Positions 1,919 to 32,998 of a DNA stretch of 64,000 bases are shown in pieces. Position 1 is the first letter of the stretch. Each line of letters starts with the position of its first letter. The DNA is from Gemmata massiliana (GTDB lineage Bacteria > Planctomycetota > Planctomycetia > Gemmatales > Gemmataceae), in the NCBI GenBank assembly GCA_000531095.1, contig HG799467.1:1-64000 (forward strand). The letters run 5' to 3'. A model generated the notes under the pieces. The model had not been told where the DNA came from and ran no database searches. It saw only the letters and a list, made by a program, of their open reading frames with translations. Both the position numbers and the translations under genes were made by a program.

Positions 1919-2317
1919 TCAGCTCCTTTCACGTTGACCGCGGTGGTCCGCGGCGATCTGTTCCAGTACGGTCAGCCGCACGTCCTCGTCCGTAACCTTG
2001 CACGTTCGCAGTGCCAGGTCCGCCAGTGCGAGCGCGGCCCGCATTCGCACCATCGCGGGCTGGTTCGTGTCGTCGCGGATCTCCCGCAACACGTCCACGG
2101 ACGACCGGAACTCGCGCTTAAGCGTCGTCACGGACTCGGACCAGTGCGCCCCCCGCGCGGTCGCGAGCGCGACTCGGACGTCGGGCCGGGCCAACGCGCG
2201 GTACACGGTCGCGTGCCCGACCCCGAGTTCGGCCGCAGCCTGGACCGGCGTTTTGCCCTCCGTCAACAGCGCGACGAGGGCTTCGTCGCGCACCGATAAC
2301 GATTCATTGAGACTCAC
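1919..2317 (-). CDS. HTH protein, possibly terminase small subunit-like
   Basis: 132 residues. Residues about 20-50 form a helix-turn-helix (KTPVQAAAELGVGHATVYRAL) like those of resolvase-type HTH and small terminase subunits. The rest is helical with an ALALADLALR segment often seen in HTH proteins encoded beside phage terminases. It lies between a coiled-coil gene and the Ala-rich gene, all leftward. A DNA-recognition role is supported by the HTH; the terminase assignment is only a possibility because no large terminase subunit is visible in element A. Confidence 0.6.
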   Translation of the reverse strand: MSLNESLSVRDEALVALLTEGKTPVQAAAELGVGHATVYRALARPDVRVALATARGAHWSESVTTLKREFRSSVDVLREIRDDTNQPAMVRMRAALALADLALRTCKVTDEDVRLTVLEQIAADHRGQRERS

Positions 2318-2372
2318 GAATTACACCCTCGAATCGAATTCCCGTCGTGCCCCGAACTGCGAGCCGCGAGTG

Positions 2373-2729
2373 TTAGTAGAGCGGTAGCGCGTTGAGAGCC
2401 TCGATCGCCGCTTCCTGTCGGGCGACCTCGTCGAGCCGAGCGTTTACGAACGCCGCGATCTCAGTCCCGAGCGCGTCCAGTTTCGCCTGCGCGTCGGCGG
2501 CCAGCGCTGCAATCGCGCTCTGCCGGTCGGATAGGGTTCCGGCGTTCCGCACCGCTTCGTCGATCGCGTTGTGGCTCGCGATCTTAACGAATTGAAGTTC
2601 CTCAAGACGCGCGATCGCGTCCCTCGTCGAGAGCGGAACGTAGACGGGGATCGTGAGCGCGCTCCGGCTCGCGTTGCCCGTTGGGATCAGCTTCGGTGCC
2701 CCGACCTGGGCGGAAGTTGTCGTGCTCAT
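2373..2729 (-). CDS. Hypothetical helical protein
   Basis: 118 residues from ATG 2729, preceded by AACAGGAG at suitable spacing; a longer frame reaching 2810 has no comparable signal. The N-terminal 25 residues are Ser/Thr-rich, then PVYVPLSTRDAIARLEEL introduces a long Ala-rich amphipathic helix, probably a coiled coil. It is the first gene downstream of the iteron region. No family is recognised. Confidence 0.6.
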   Translation of the reverse strand: MSTTTSAQVGAPKLIPTGNASRSALTIPVYVPLSTRDAIARLEELQFVKIASHNAIDEAVRNAGTLSDRQSAIAALAADAQAKLDALGTEIAAFVNARLDEVARQEAAIEALNALPLY

Positions 2730-2903
2730 TACCAGACTCCTGTTAAGGGACCAAACTGCGGTCACCGTGACCGCGGAAACCAGTTCAACCAAGAGCCAAC
2801 AAAAACCCACACTTCGCTTGCAAATTGAAACGCTTATTAATTGGATCTTTAATCGCGATCTTGGTTACAGTTGCCCGCACTGCGATCGAGTACAGGTGAC
2901 GAG

Positions 2904-3187
2904 GTGACAGGGGCAGTTTTCAACCCTGTCACGCATTGAACCCCAAGAGCTACAAGCGGTTGGAGCGAGGGCGTGACAGGTGACAGGGGGGAAGCGTATT
3001 ACCGACTTCTCTCTGGCAAAGGCATCTGTGTCTCTCATTAAGAGAGAGATCCTTAGCTGTACTTAGTTTCTAAGTCACTTACCCTGTCACCCTGTCACTA
3101 ACCAGTTACAAACCCTGTAATTTCAAGCCTTTGAGCCGGTGACAGGGTAAGTTGTCGCCCCTGTCACCGATCCGTCACGCCTGTCAC
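2904..3187. repeat. Iteron-like array, candidate replication origin of element A
   Basis: The octamer GTGACAGG occurs nine times in 284 bp: direct at 2904, 2973, 2980 and 3139, inverted (CCTGTCAC) at 2925, 3083, 3091, 3160 and 3180. The cluster covers the gap 2730-3122 and the last codons of the primase-helicase gene. Between the two groups lies a less GC-rich stretch with a TCTCTC-attaa-GAGAGA inverted repeat. Iterons beside a replication gene are the standard layout of phage and plasmid origins. The rest of the gap (2730-2900) is AT-rich and holds no gene. Confidence 0.65.
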
Positions 3188-6080
3188 CCGACTGCCGTCC
3201 GTGCTTGCCCGACTTCGCGGCTCTCGACTGCCCGACAAGATCACGTAGCTCGGTCGCTTTCTTTCGCGCGCGTAGCCCACTCGCGTCGGGCAGGTCACCT
3301 CCGACCCAAAAGTACACTCGCGCGGTGTTCGTTCGACCGCGCACGATTTGCGGGATCTTGCCTGCGTAGCGCCCGACTTCGGCGAGGGCCGCCGCAGGTT
3401 TGCGGCGCCCGGTCCGGTACAGAGCACCGTCCGCGATCATCGCCACCTCCTCGACCGTCAGTTCGATAACCGCCGATTCGAGTTCGTCGCGCGGAACCGC
3501 CCGTTGCGTCGCGAGGTAGGTTCGGAACGCTTCGGCCAGCGCTTCGGCGTTCACGTCGTCGCTATCGGCTGCGTCGCGCCGCTCCCCTAGCTCCCGTAAC
3601 ACGGCCTCAAACTCCGCGCGATCGGCACAGCACCCGGCCAGAACCTTCGTCTCCCACAGCGACCACCGGCTCAGCCCCGGCGCGGACGCCCAATCGAGTG
3701 TCTCGGCTCGGCGGATCACGTCGATCGCGCTGGCCCACAACTCGGCGTAATAATCCGGGTTGGTGCGGTATTCGTTCACATTGTCGCCCCAACGCGGGTC
3801 GCGCGTGCTCGGACGCGCGAGGCGGATTGGAACCACGCGCTGAGCGAAGTCCTTGCTCAATGACCCGCCGTTCATAGTGAGAAAAATCGTGTGGTAGTTC
3901 CGAACCCGCCCCTCTCCCGCGTACAGTTGACGGCCCGAGTGTTCTTCCGCGGTGATCAACCCTTCAAAGTCCCCGTTGCTCAGTTGATCGGATTTGATGT
4001 TGTCCAGGATGATGACCCACTTGCCCGTTCCTTCCGGGGACAAGATGCGGGTCCGAAGGTCGCTCACCGTGCTGTCCTGCGTGAACGACAGCGCCCCGCC
4101 CGCGTGTGCGGCATTGCATTCCGCCGCGGTAGATTTACCCACACCCCGCCCGCCCTCGGCATCGTCCTCCGGCGCCGTGAATAGAAACACGGGGCGCTTG
4201 CCCGGTGGCCCGCCCCAACTCAACGTGACGAACGCGGCTTTCAGCAGCACCCGGTCGACGGCCGCTGCCGGGTTAAATTCCCCAATGAAGCGATCGAGAA
4301 CGTCGTAGTGCGGGCACTGGCGCTGCGCCGCAGGCAACGGAACCGACTCGACGCAGAACATATCCGAAGGCATGGGGTATCGCGGGCGCGGGAAGTACCC
4401 GTGATACTTGGGCACAAGGGCGCGCACCGCGCCGGGCATATCGTCCCAGACGGGCAACCCCGTCCCGTCCCGCCACACAATCGGGTACTGTGCGTTCCGC
4501 ACCACCCGCGCGACGTAGGCGTGTAGAGCCTTCGCGGTGGAAATCGCAACCACGTGCCCGTCTTCGACCGCGAACAAGCCGCCGGGGAAGCTGTTGAGCG
4601 TGCTCCCGACCGCGGCCACGATGTCGGCGGCGATGTCGTTGACGTTCCGGCCGACGATCTCGAACTCATGAGGGGCCGTTCCGGTCGGGTCGGCCGGGAG
4701 ATCCGCCACCTGAAACGCGCGTTCGTCTGCCGCCCCGAGTTCGTTCCACATTTGGAGCAATTGGTGCGGTGTAACCCCGAGTGCGTCCGCGATCGCGCGG
4801 CGCCGCTTCTCGTTGGTCGGATTCGCCCGATCGCAGAAAACCACCGCACCGTTTTTGCACCCCTCGATCGTAACTGTGTTGTTCTTGGCGGGGTTGCTGA
4901 ACCTTACGACATCGGTCTTGCGGTCCGCGGGATCGCACTTCGCGGTGGCTTTCGGCCGTTCGAGGAAGTTGGCGATGGTGTTCACGGGCAGCATCGCCCG
5001 ATCCGCCTTCTTACGCGCGGCCTCGACGTCCGCGCCGGCTTCGCGGGCACACGAGAAGACGGCCGCCGAGTACGCGGGCTTCAGTATCGAATCGGGTATG
5101 GCCGGGAACCGTTTACGAAGGTGTGGCGCGGTAACCTCCCACCGCGAACCCTGCTTAACCATCTGGAAAAGCGGGCTGTCGTGGGTCAGCGCCGGCTCGC
5201 CAACAACGTGCTCCGGGATAATCGCGGAGAACGGAACGAAGCCCGGATTACGCATACGGCCGTATCCAAGCCCCTTACCCTCGCACCGGAAACACTTGAT
5301 CCCGCCTTCCTGAATCTGTATCGGGTTCACGGACGACGACGGACCGGGGGCAATCGGGCACTCCTCATGCGAGAGGCGTTGGTTGATGTGCCAGCCGCGC
5401 GTTTCGAGCCATTCGTCCCGCCTCTCGGGATCTACCTCACGGCGCGGATGGAACCCCGCTGAAAACCCGGATACGTCGGTGTTCGGAGTTTGGGTGTAGA
5501 CCGCGCCACCGAGCGCGCCACCGTGCTTCGTCGAGGGTGACATGGGGTTGCGAGAGCGGGAGAGAAGCTCCGCTCCGGCGGACCGGTCGGCTTCGAGCCA
5601 CGCCACGGCCGCCACTGCCGCGAGTTCTTTCGCGGTATAGCCGTCCGCCGCGGCGTAGATGAGTTTACACCCACCACCGTGACTCAGGTGGTACGCGAAA
5701 GGCCGGGGCTGAATCCCCGCGGCGCGAGTCTCCGTTAACTCGGGTTTGGGTGGGTAGGCTTGGTGGTAGTCCACGTCCAGTTCGCATGCCCGATCAGTGC
5801 CTTCCCACCCGATAACTTCATCCGGCGTGTCGCTCGTACTCAAGGCGGTCAAAATTGCTTCTTGGGGCGTCTCCCCGGTGATCGGTATCGCCTCACTTGC
5901 GGTGGTGTGCATGGACCGCTTGTAAAGCGTGAATGCCCCGCTCGCTCCAAGAGGTAACGCCTCAATGTCGGCTTGAACATTGCCCTTCCGCAACGGGGTA
6001 CTCGAACCGGAATCGGCCCCATTTGAATCGATTGCTAATTCTATCGCTTTATTTTCATCTCTTGTGTGCGTAGAATCCAT
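3123..6080 (-). CDS. Primase-helicase (zinc-binding N-terminal half, AAA+/SF3-type ATPase)
   Basis: 985 residues from ATG 6080 (preceded by AACAGGAG; the frame continues upstream but is poorer coding). Around residues 237-266 there is a zinc-ribbon-like cluster (SHEEC, later CFRCEGKG) as in phage primases. Around residue 645 lies a Walker A motif (GRGVGKST), near 690 a hydrophobic strand ending in Asp-Asn (WVIILDN, Walker B-like), and near 733 a sensor-like strand (TIFLTMNGG). This combination fits the DNA-replication ATPases of integrative elements that prime and unwind at their own origin. The C-terminus is basic and its codons contain part of the iteron array. Transcribed leftward with the DUF1580 gene upstream. 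Confidence 0.8.
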   Translation of the reverse strand: MDSTHTRDENKAIELAIDSNGADSGSSTPLRKGNVQADIEALPLGASGAFTLYKRSMHTTASEAIPITGETPQEAILTALSTSDTPDEVIGWEGTDRACELDVDYHQAYPPKPELTETRAAGIQPRPFAYHLSHGGGCKLIYAAADGYTAKELAAVAAVAWLEADRSAGAELLSRSRNPMSPSTKHGGALGGAVYTQTPNTDVSGFSAGFHPRREVDPERRDEWLETRGWHINQRLSHEECPIAPGPSSSVNPIQIQEGGIKCFRCEGKGLGYGRMRNPGFVPFSAIIPEHVVGEPALTHDSPLFQMVKQGSRWEVTAPHLRKRFPAIPDSILKPAYSAAVFSCAREAGADVEAARKKADRAMLPVNTIANFLERPKATAKCDPADRKTDVVRFSNPAKNNTVTIEGCKNGAVVFCDRANPTNEKRRRAIADALGVTPHQLLQMWNELGAADERAFQVADLPADPTGTAPHEFEIVGRNVNDIAADIVAAVGSTLNSFPGGLFAVEDGHVVAISTAKALHAYVARVVRNAQYPIVWRDGTGLPVWDDMPGAVRALVPKYHGYFPRPRYPMPSDMFCVESVPLPAAQRQCPHYDVLDRFIGEFNPAAAVDRVLLKAAFVTLSWGGPPGKRPVFLFTAPEDDAEGGRGVGKSTAAECNAAHAGGALSFTQDSTVSDLRTRILSPEGTGKWVIILDNIKSDQLSNGDFEGLITAEEHSGRQLYAGEGRVRNYHTIFLTMNGGSLSKDFAQRVVPIRLARPSTRDPRWGDNVNEYRTNPDYYAELWASAIDVIRRAETLDWASAPGLSRWSLWETKVLAGCCADRAEFEAVLRELGERRDAADSDDVNAEALAEAFRTYLATQRAVPRDELESAVIELTVEEVAMIADGALYRTGRRKPAAALAEVGRYAGKIPQIVRGRTNTARVYFWVGGDLPDASGLRARKKATELRDLVGQSRAAKSGKHGRQSGDRRDGSVTGATTYPVTGSKA

Positions 6081-6122
6081 TGTCACTCCTGTTACTGCTC
6101 CGGGTGGCGCCGGGGCCGAAGC

Positions 6123-6224
6123 ACACCGCACGTCGGCGCGGTGTGTTTTCGTTTTGGCTCCGTGCGATCTGATCCTTCGGTTCTCAGAAAACCGCTCAAT
6201 GCTCAAGCGACCATTGAGCGGTTT
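6123..6224. promoter_or_regulatory. Two inverted repeats upstream of the primase gene
   Basis: The 228-bp gap between the primase start and the DUF1580 gene holds a CACACCGC/GCGGTGTG repeat at about 6123-6146 and a perfect 13-bp inverted repeat at 6189-6201/6212-6224 with a 10-base loop (AAACCGCTCAATG arms). Neither is followed by a T-run in the leftward direction, so they may be operators rather than terminators. Confidence 0.45.
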
Positions 6225-6308
6225 GGCTTCCGCCGTCACTGCGAGTTGGGTTCACTCGGGAACATTTCCACGGTGCCGGCGGGTACCGCCGCCACGATCT
6301 GTTGAGCG

Positions 6309-6638
6309 TCAGACACCCAGGAGCGCGAGCGTCGCGTTTGCCGCGGCGACACCTCGTTCCCGTTCTGCGGGCGTGCGCAAAGCGGGGGCATTGTCCGGTG
6401 CCACGTGCGTAGCCGTGATCCGCTCAATGAAGGCATCGAGCCAGTCCTGGCACGTCGCCCACTTCGAGCCGATGCGAACCGCACGTAGCTTCACGCGCGT
6501 TCCATCGCCCGCGCGCACGTCCGTTTGAATCCAACGTGTCAGCGTGGCCGAGTAAACACCGCGCCCGCCGCGCCCCGTGTCGCCGAGTCGTCGCGCGGCT
6601 TCAGCTAGCCCGATCAAGCGCGTCCCGTTGTCGCTCAC
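6309..6638 (-). CDS. DUF1580 family protein, probable excisionase or regulator
   Basis: 109 residues from GTG 6638 preceded by ACGGGAG; the longer frame to 6842 is not convincing. The sequence LIGLAEAARRLGD...GVYSATLTRWIQTDVRAG...LRAVRIGSKWATCQDWL is the DUF1580 pattern known from planctomycete genomes, a MerR/excisionase-like winged helix. It lies directly downstream of the integrase in the same direction, the typical place for a recombination directionality factor. That role is inferred from position and fold. Confidence 0.75.
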   Translation of the reverse strand: MSDNGTRLIGLAEAARRLGDTGRGGRGVYSATLTRWIQTDVRAGDGTRVKLRAVRIGSKWATCQDWLDAFIERITATHVAPDNAPALRTPAERERGVAAANATLALLGV

Positions 6639-6776
6639 GTTCGGCTCCCGTTCGTGTCGTGTGAGTTCGCAAAGGCTGTCACTAATTAGTAGGCACGCGA
6701 CGAGACGGCGCACTAGGGGCAGAAACGCTGAAAATTGCAGTATTTCGCGCTGTATGTGCGAATCGCGATGGAAATT

Positions 6777-6814
6777 GCAACGGCCGCTGCAATTGGTGTT
6801 GCAGCGGCCGTTGC
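6777..6814 (-). terminator. Strong hairpin behind the integrase gene
   Basis: A perfect 15-bp inverted repeat (6777-6791 and 6800-6814, loop of 8) lies 28 bp after the integrase stop. In the leftward direction it is followed by AATTTCC, only a short T-stretch, so it is a probable but not classical intrinsic terminator. The rest of the 203-bp gap holds no gene. Confidence 0.5.
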
Positions 6815-6841
6815 GAGTGAGGGTTTTCGGGGTCGCGGGCA

Positions 6842-8071
6842 CTAACCGGCGCGCTCCGCGGCGTGCATCGCGAGCGCGCGGTCCGCAGTCCGGCTGTAGT
6901 GATCGGACATGTTCAAGGCGGAGTGCCCGAGTACCGCGCGAACGTGGTCGGGGCCGAATTGCTCGCGCAACTCAACGGCGCGCAGGTGGCGGAGCGTGTA
7001 GGGTGTGAACGGGGCGACACCCGCTTTCAGGCACGCGCGGCGCACGGCACATGAAAGAGTGAGGTGCGAGTAGACCGCGCCCGGCGCGCGTTTCCGGGCC
7101 GCTCCTTTTCGCTTCGTGGCGTTTCGCCGCATGTGCGAAGGCCAGCGTTTCGTCTTTCGGGCCGCGGACCGCTCAGTGTTGTGTTCGGCGTGCGCGCGGG
7201 CTGGCGAGAAGACGTAATCATCGGGATCGGGCGTTTTGTCCAACCAGGGAGCTAGAACCGTTTGGGCGTCCGGCCCGATGTAGACGGCCCGCGACTTCCC
7301 GCGCCAACTGCTCTTGTGACGGGTCGGCTTCAGTTCCCAGATGGGACCGGTGCGATCGATCTCGCACGGTTTCATTTTCAGAATCTCCGACGGGCGCGCC
7401 CCCGTCAGCCAAAGGGTGCGGATGATCGCGGCCACCGGTGGCCGGAGCAGAGGTAACACCTTCGCGACCGCGGTCGGATCGGCGGGCATACGAGCCTCTC
7501 CCTCCGCGGCCCCGTCACGCCCCGGCGCAAGGGGGCGCACCGCGCTCAATTTTTCCAGCACCCCCACCGCGACGGGTAACCCGTCCTCGACGCACCAACG
7601 AATGAACCCCCGCACCATTTTCGCGCGCCGGTTGACTTGGTTCCGGACTCGGCCGTCGCCGATCATGGCTTGACGGACCGTTTTGAAGCACCGAATGTCG
7701 AACTCTGCCAGCGGCAGCGCGCCGAAAAACCGTTGGAGGTAGCGGAGTGTAATTTTGATGTCTTCGGCCGTTCCGGTCGGCGTACCGTCCGGATTGCGGT
7801 AGTAACCTTCGACGTGCGAAACGTACTTCACGAGCGCTTCGGCCACGGTCAGATCGGCGGGCGCGTTAACGGGCGCCGGCGCCCCGTGGACCGGCGCAAC
7901 CGATCGGCCCGCACGAAGCCGCACGAGTAACCGTTCGTATTCCAGTTGAGCTTGCTCGGAACCCCAGGGACCGAGTGTGACCGTGCGGCGGGTCGGACCG
8001 TCGTAAATATCGACGACCGCGGCGCCTTTGTGTTGACGGGGGTTCGGGAACGGATTTTTCCGACGCGACAT
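6842..8071 (-). CDS. int: Tyrosine recombinase (integrase) of element A
   Basis: 409 residues. The N-terminal arm-binding part (to about residue 70) and core-binding domain are followed by a catalytic domain with the family signature: Arg in LTGARPSE, H-x-x-R in TLRHLRAVEL, the third-box His in LGHSALN and the nucleophile Tyr in SDHYSR. The tRNA-His half repeat (att) begins about 110 bp upstream of its start. It inserts and excises element A by recombining the att core. The divergence from the element B integrase is large (different catalytic boxes and N-terminus) although both apparently use the same tRNA. Confidence 0.92.
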   Translation of the reverse strand: MSRRKNPFPNPRQHKGAAVVDIYDGPTRRTVTLGPWGSEQAQLEYERLLVRLRAGRSVAPVHGAPAPVNAPADLTVAEALVKYVSHVEGYYRNPDGTPTGTAEDIKITLRYLQRFFGALPLAEFDIRCFKTVRQAMIGDGRVRNQVNRRAKMVRGFIRWCVEDGLPVAVGVLEKLSAVRPLAPGRDGAAEGEARMPADPTAVAKVLPLLRPPVAAIIRTLWLTGARPSEILKMKPCEIDRTGPIWELKPTRHKSSWRGKSRAVYIGPDAQTVLAPWLDKTPDPDDYVFSPARAHAEHNTERSAARKTKRWPSHMRRNATKRKGAARKRAPGAVYSHLTLSCAVRRACLKAGVAPFTPYTLRHLRAVELREQFGPDHVRAVLGHSALNMSDHYSRTADRALAMHAAERAG

Positions 8072-8181: not shown

Positions 8182-8226
8182 AGGGTGACTGACGGGATTT
8201 GAACCCGCGACTTCCAGATCCACAAT
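8182..8226 (-). repeat. att repeat, 3' half of tRNA-His(GTG), left copy
   Basis: This 45-bp segment is identical to 32954-32998. Read on the minus strand it starts in the anticodon loop (TTGTGGA, anticodon GTG), continues through anticodon stem (TCTGG), variable loop and a GCGGG-TTCAAAT-CCCGT T-arm, and ends in the acceptor strand CAGTCACC. The 5' half of the tRNA is missing: the base-pairing partner CCAGA is not present beside the loop. It is the junction between elements A and B. Confidence 0.88.
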
Positions 8227-9107: not shown

Positions 9108-9371
9108 ATGCGTCTCGACGATGACGGCGACTACGAATTCGTTCGCGTCCCGAAGAAGCGGAAGGTGAAGGGCAAAAACTGGTTCGCGGTGAAGGTGTAC
9201 GCGGTCGGTGTTGTGCTGGCGATCGGGTTCATTGCGTTGAACGCGATCCACGGGGCAACGAGTCAGCAGATTCGGAACGAGACGGAACGATCGCAGCAAC
9301 TTGGTGAGCAACACTCGCGAATGGTGGGTGCGGAAATCGAACGGAATCGAAAAGCAGCCGGGTTCAAATAG
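9108..9371 (+). CDS. Small membrane protein, second of a pair
   Basis: 87 residues, ATG directly after the preceding stop with GGAGTAGCAG as ribosome binding site. A basic segment (PKKRKVKGK) precedes one transmembrane helix (VYAVGVVLAIGFIALNAI, residues about 29-46), followed by a Glu/Arg/Gln-rich helix that could form a coiled coil in the periplasm. The topology is reminiscent of single-pass spanin or exclusion proteins, but no family is recognised. Confidence 0.6.
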   Translation: MRLDDDGDYEFVRVPKKRKVKGKNWFAVKVYAVGVVLAIGFIALNAIHGATSQQIRNETERSQQLGEQHSRMVGAEIERNRKAAGFK

Positions 9372-32953: not shown

Positions 32954-32998
32954 AGGGTGACTGACGGGATTTGAACCCGCGACTTCCAGATCCACAAT
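32954..32998 (-). repeat. att repeat, 3' half of tRNA-His(GTG), right copy
   Basis: Identical over 45 bp to 8182-8226. Here too the tRNA 5' half is missing: beyond the anticodon loop the sequence becomes GTAGCACG, not the complement needed for the stem. This is the junction between elements B and C. An intact tRNA-His is therefore expected to the right of the window. Confidence 0.88.

Follow-up and report, generated by a model that had tools for sequence, protein, structure and literature searches.

Nine octamers arranged as a dyad at the 3′ end of a primase-helicase gene: a probable replication origin of an integrated element in Gemmata massiliana

What do nine copies of a single octamer do at the end of a primase-helicase gene? 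In a 64-kb stretch of Gemmata massiliana DNA, here called the window, the octamer GTGACAGG occurs nine times between positions 2904 and 3187, in both orientations. Exact matching recovered each of the copies that an earlier reading of the sequence alone (the sequence-only reading) had reported, on the plus strand at 2904-2911, 2973-2980, 2980-2987 and 3139-3146, and on the minus strand at 2925-2932, 3083-3090, 3091-3098, 3160-3167 and 3180-3187, including the overlap by one base at 2973/2980 and the abutting copies at 3083/3091. Its claim that such a cluster exceeds chance is also borne out, as no 8-mer reached more than 4 copies when the surrounding 1.2 kb was simulated 2000 times with a Markov model. 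This is the sole 8-mer cluster of at least 7 copies in the window, and the whole 9.27 Mb genome holds 141 copies of GTGACAGG, about one per 66 kb. Two further matches, each with 2 mismatches, lie at 3171-3178 on the minus strand, between the gene-side outer copies (GTGACGGA), and at 2896-2903 on the plus strand (GTGACGAG); judging from their sequences, the former may be a decayed iteron and both may occupy weaker outer positions.

The spacing of the copies had been described as uneven, but it is in fact that of a precise dyad, because the positions of mirror partners have sums of 168 or 169. Numbered from the stop codon in the orientation of the gene, the copies start at -64 (+), -44 (+), -23 (-), 25 (+) and 33 (+) on one side, and at 136 (-), 143 (-), 191 (+) and 212 (-) on the other, so that four pairs mirror each other within 1 bp (p~0.001 by shuffling of positions and strands) about a centre near ~3036. 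Each half follows the same plan: the outer copies are spaced by 20-21 bp and followed by an inverted copy, from which a step of 48 bp leads to a tandem pair with members 7-8 bp apart. In the half far from the gene, the outer copy at 2904-2911 mirrors 3160-3167, the inverted copy at 2925-2932 mirrors 3139-3146 and, beyond a spacer at 2933-2972, the two members of the tandem inner pair at 2973-2980 and 2980-2987 mirror 3091-3098 and 3083-3090, respectively. On the gene side, the tandem inner pair (copy 1 at 3091-3098, copy 2 at 3083-3090) is separated from the inverted copy at 3139-3146 by a spacer at 3099-3138 with an AT content of 0.57 versus 0.37 locally, which holds the primase stop codon and which, by analogy with P4 and phage-inducible chromosomal islands (PICIs), is a possible melting region; the inverted copy and the outer copies at 3160-3167 and 3180-3187 all lie within the primase open reading frame (ORF). 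Between the tandem pairs stretches a 95-bp centre (2988-3082), likewise AT-rich (0.56 versus 0.37 locally), which contains small hairpins and has a DNA folding z-score of -2.6.

The gene in question (3123-6239, minus strand) encodes a protein with an AEP-like N-terminal part, in which D-x-D and SHGGG motifs can be discerned by eye, a D5/DUF5906-like SF3 helicase core and, at about residues 915-980, a predicted winged-helix domain. Its similarity to DUF5906 is weak and below the Pfam cut-off, and searching PDB sequences with a profile was uninformative; the AlphaFold model (mean pLDDT of 60 overall, and 80-95 across much of the helicase core), on the other hand, matches the structures of the NrS-1 primase-polymerase, the SaPI PriRep1/SaPI5 primase-helicases and poxvirus D5, the SaPI match at a sequence identity of only ~12%. 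Modelled alone, the C-terminal domain reaches a pLDDT of 85 with a winged-helix topology, and the proteins it finds with Foldseek are mostly winged-helix DNA-binding proteins, although these appear only at E > 0.05 and none below 0.001. The sequence-only reading had suggested the N-terminal domain for DNA binding, which is probably wrong, as the winged helix is predicted at the C-terminus and both SaPI Rep and SCCmec Cch2 bind their origins through a C-terminal domain (PMC7581432).

We consider it very probable that the region 2896-3187 is the self-loading replication origin of an integrated element that also carries the integrase at 6842-8071, and that the primase-helicase encoded by this element uses the octamers as iterons, presumably binding them through its predicted C-terminal winged-helix domain as two hexamers placed face to face. 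What leads us there is the cluster itself, its dyad symmetry and AT-richness, the conservation of its position and spacing in relatives, and the family and fold of the protein; from these we infer the binding, the domain responsible for it, the loading of a double hexamer, the site of melting and the activity as an origin. In such a mechanism, the C-terminal domain would bind the octamers, and each half-origin, composed of outer copies, inverted copy and inner tandem pair, would nucleate one SF3 helicase hexamer. Because the half-origins face each other across the 95-bp AT-rich centre, the two hexamers would load head to head, melt either this centre or the 40-bp spacers and then move apart, whereupon the N-terminal primase would start synthesis.

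This arrangement has known counterparts. In phage P4, the alpha protein unites a primase, an SF3 helicase and, at its C-terminus, a winged-helix domain that binds the origin (PMC4234260), and the P4 ori carries the word GGTGAACA at 9310+, 9320+, 9331+, 9353-, 9396+ and 9406+, that is, in steps of 10, 11, 22, 43 and 10. Its 8-bp type I iterons thus form a unit of outer triplet, 22-bp step, inverted copy, 43-bp step and tandem pair at 10, and the unit in the window, with 20, 21, 48 and 8 against (10+11), 22, 43 and 10, reproduces it. In addition, the P4 word GGTGAACAG resembles GTGACAGG, and crr adjoins the 3′ end of the alpha gene, just as the cluster adjoins that of the initiator gene here. 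The two systems differ in that the cis sites of P4 are split into ori and a distant crr, whereas the 64-kb window, beyond whose start the element continues, contains one cluster; in that the primase of alpha is of the TOPRIM type while that of our protein looks AEP-like; and in that two units are set face to face here in one compact dyad. Similarly, the pri-ori of EcCICFT073, whose origin function was shown in a plasmid assay, lies directly 3′ of the pri-rep gene and has two iteron sets (PMC6092414), whose 9/46/22/11 spacing is that of the shared unit; its word GGTAGA recurs in steps of 9, 46, 22, 11 and 9, followed by the mirror image. Its units, however, point outwards, with the outer groups meeting at a 25-bp centre, whereas in the window it is the tandem pairs that meet, across 95 bp. 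The gene order is also that of a PICI, with int (6842-8071), a DUF1580-like gene (6309-6842) that we take, as an inference, for xis, the primase-helicase and ori, but PICI attachment sites are reportedly never used by prophages, while the tRNA-His core of this element is shared with a terminase-bearing neighbour. Among AEP primases with a self-loading helicase, as those of SaPIbov1, SaPI5 and SCCmec Cch2, whose likeness to the window protein extends to the match of its predicted model to the SaPI5/PriRep1 structures, the C-terminal domain of SaPI Rep binds iterons directly downstream of its gene, apparently as two hexamers, and residues 400-538 of Cch2 bind the putative origin (PMC7581432). 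Finally, ORF904 of pRN1 is an AEP, SF3 and winged-helix protein with its origin just 3′ of the gene, but this origin is a 100-nt stem-loop without iterons (PMC4234260), unlike the window, which has iterons and only small hairpins in the centre in place of a stem-loop of ~100 nt. An origin beside the primase, as the sequence-only reading had proposed, is strongly supported by position, dyad, recurrence in relatives and the P4/PICI layout. Its further suggestion of a new origin type is not supported, since P4, SaPI and PICI origins share this layout.

Is the arrangement found in related elements? Protein searches of genome contigs, phages and plasmids gave no close relatives, and a search of viral contigs returned only this provirus itself, which is why homologues were collected from planctomycete whole genomes. 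We tested 90 loci for at least 5 copies of one 8-mer within -200 to +1500 of the stop codon, with stretches of the same loci as controls. Such a cluster lies beside the 3′ end in 35 of the 90 homologues but in only 9 of 380 control segments, and clusters of at least 8 copies are found in 21 homologues and in none of the 380 controls. The remaining 55 homologues, without a cluster of at least 5 copies, are mostly distant, some at truncated loci, and some of them may have diverged or short iterons. The comparison with relatives that had been suggested as a check thus comes out favourably for the closest homologue (L030, 40% identity), which has a cluster of GTGTAGGG right after the stop codon, and less so for the distant ones, ~60% of which have no cluster at this threshold.

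The words mostly differ between elements (e.g., GTGTAGGG, TCCCGACA, TGCCGAAC, GCAGGTTT, CGCAACCT, TTCCCTAC, TGGTGGAC and TGGTGAAC), and in L032 and L040 the word is GTGACAG itself. The spacing, for which, as for the dyad tests, motifs and cluster zones were set by hand from the homologue cluster scan, is kept in the better clusters, with an inner pair at 9, an inverted copy 45-50 further out, then 16-24 and then 10, 11 or 20. By shuffling, the dyad is significant at p<=0.001 in ten of the relatives' clusters tested and not significant in several others, including L030, L040 and L111. L152 is perfectly mirrored, with all five pair sums equal, and L153, L164, L165 and L168 have six mirrored pairs each, while L032 represents a minimal form with one tandem pair on either side of a 54-bp AT-rich centre. 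Between stop codon and cluster, L040, L131 and L135 have 0.8-1.2 kb of other sequence. In the window, three of the nine octamers (3139-3187) fall inside the final codons of the primase-helicase ORF, which ends at 3123, and origins reach into the final codons in L043, L047, L109, L110, L111, L122, L123 and L124 as well, which makes it plausible that, as previously claimed, the last residues of the primase are constrained by DNA function. Three loci (L139, L141 and L145) have a helicase ORF that ends early and a cluster that begins ~400 bp later; here, a small gene of its own may encode the winged-helix part. Octamer word and protein co-vary significantly (rho 0.38, p<0.001), but the C-terminal domain is not separable from the helicase core (rho 0.33) in tracking the word, the two correlating at 0.79, and its co-variation with the word is not separable from overall relatedness.

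As a separate observation, 16 of 30 planctomycete origins have in their dyad centre a run of alternating purines and pyrimidines of 13-38 bp, prone to form Z-DNA (L148, L168, L110, L155, L133, L111, L128, L109 and L129 among them), which exceeds in length those in >99% of stretches of this size from the locus concerned. The origin in the window has no such run in its centre. In the origins that have one, it is possibly a melting or structure signal.

Could the octamers have another role? They might be operators through which the primase-helicase, or a small HTH protein, controls the downstream genes (2810 to 1456), with replication starting elsewhere. The cluster does separate the primase gene from the ORFs that follow in the same direction, and replication initiators often also act as transcription repressors. 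Nine copies in an exact dyad of ~290 bp that extends 60 bp into the upstream gene are nevertheless unlike an operator, a search of 2300-3400 with the sigma-70 consensus found no promoter-like site, and the same geometry is found 3′ of primase-helicase genes whose downstream genes are unrelated. We therefore regard operators in place of an origin as improbable, although the octamers may serve as both. Even less likely is a partition or incompatibility site of a plasmid-like element, centromere-like or made of copy-number iterons: iteron arrays are typical of such sites, but a non-exhaustive search found no ParA/ParB-like gene among the neighbours checked, the cluster is tied to the 3′ end of the primase-helicase gene in many elements and the layout of the dyad is that of origins. 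Arm-type sites for the integrase or excisionase, or a packaging signal of the pac or cos type, are the least credible of all, for although phage elements have such repeats and P4 has attP arm repeats near crr, the attachment core lies 5 kb off, at 8191, and across relatives the repeats follow the primase gene and not integrase or terminase genes.

The geometry can also be sought in DNA alone. In viral contigs, we searched for a GTGACAG pair followed after 76 to 106 bp by CTGTCAC, using no protein information, and found 94 loci, as compared to 4 with a scrambled word in the same geometry; direct and outward orders of the pattern gave 53 and 49 loci, many of them within the same arrays. Nine of ten large ORFs abutting the viral clusters encode primases or SF3 helicases of several Pfam families. 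A primase-helicase is detectable at 52 of the 94 loci, and in 44 of these its 3′ end adjoins the cluster, with ~35 of the 44 being independent, because nine of the search queries derived from these same loci. With an HMM derived from the planctomycete proteins, just 2 of 133 viral DNA matches yielded a homologue; this reflects low sensitivity, as Pfam and a wider query set found many. For cellular genomes, a stricter pattern with 28 fixed bases returned 36 loci in Bacteroidota, Clostridia, Bacilli and Pseudomonadota, where seven of ten abutting ORFs checked are of the D5/DUF5906, VapE, BT4734 or DUF927 type, and the other three are an ORF with only a weak AAA match, UvrC and an ORF without a family. 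Minimal versions occur in Bacteroidota (L397-L401, L410, L414, L416, L418, L421, L429 and L430), with two facing GTGACAG tandem pairs, four copies in all, ~85-120 bp apart and in many cases with no large primase-helicase less than 900 bp away.

The spacing plan of P4 and of a PICI thus recurs in many primase-helicase elements, with a different word per lineage. We tentatively propose, with a little less than even confidence, that a very large class of primase-helicases of viruses and mobile elements (P4-alpha, D5/DUF5906, VapE and DUF927) from several phyla shares a conserved origin code, a single spacing grammar that runs from the tandem pair over ~46 to the inverted copy and over ~22 to the outer copies and is mostly present twice, as a dyad. 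In this code, a 7-9 bp word would act as an exchangeable, element-specific password and the facing dyad would set two hexamers at a fixed distance. If this is true, origins and initiator specificities become readable from DNA alone. What is novel may be the breadth, in that helicases of several families and from several phyla follow a single spacing grammar with words specific to each element, strongly enough for origins to be located without protein information; we did not find it stated in the open literature searched, in which subscription papers on the replication of P4 and SaPI are mostly missing. For planctomycete prophage-like elements, the cluster would locate the origin of a class for which we found none described in the literature searched. 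As the spacing recurs with lineage-specific words, both the calling of origins from DNA alone in unannotated phages and the decoding of winged-helix residues against the octamer, using roughly 20 natural words, become testable.

The element in the window comprises, besides the primase-helicase, a tyrosine integrase (6842-8071, minus strand; Pfam PF00589, 4.6e-11; PHROG integrase) and a small DUF1580-like protein (6309-6842, minus strand; weak Pfam match), a putative DNA-binding protein in an excisionase-like position. Its right end is marked by a residual 35-bp tRNA-His attachment core at 8191-8225 on the plus strand, which corresponds to the 3′ half of a minus-strand tRNA. Downstream of the origin and in the same operon direction, a small HTH_23 protein (1919-2317, minus strand; Pfam 7.1e-06), which has no part in the mechanism proposed above, sits where satellites often have the small terminase subunit. 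Identical copies of the tRNA-His core, all in one orientation, are found in the window at 8191-8225 and 32963-32997, at C6:82436, where the tRNA-His is intact, and at C9:306869. Because the same core recurs at these four places, the sequence suggests that several elements, three or more, are integrated in tandem at one tRNA gene; the core also flanks the neighbouring segment 8226-32997, which has a terminase large subunit. IMG/VR treats the stretch as a single provirus of 80 kb, in which several elements may have been merged. On the left, the element in the window extends past the start of the contig. Joining the end of C9 to the start of C6 would complete it, and C9 does share the attachment core, but its last 13 kb hold kinases and proteins of no known function and no phage genes, and we therefore left this end undefined. 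Directly after the tRNA-His core on C9, at ~306985-307060 (L183:1610-1690), words similar to AATTGCGGG are repeated.

The same genome carries a second origin just past the end of the window, with 13 exact copies of AAACCTGC/GCAGGTTT at C6:65001-65370 (L148:3002-3371) in six mirrored pairs. These GCAGGTTT iterons lie directly 3′ of another element's own primase-helicase gene (C6 65379-67565), and with two elements in one genome each paired with its own primase and its own iterons, the word follows the element and not the host.
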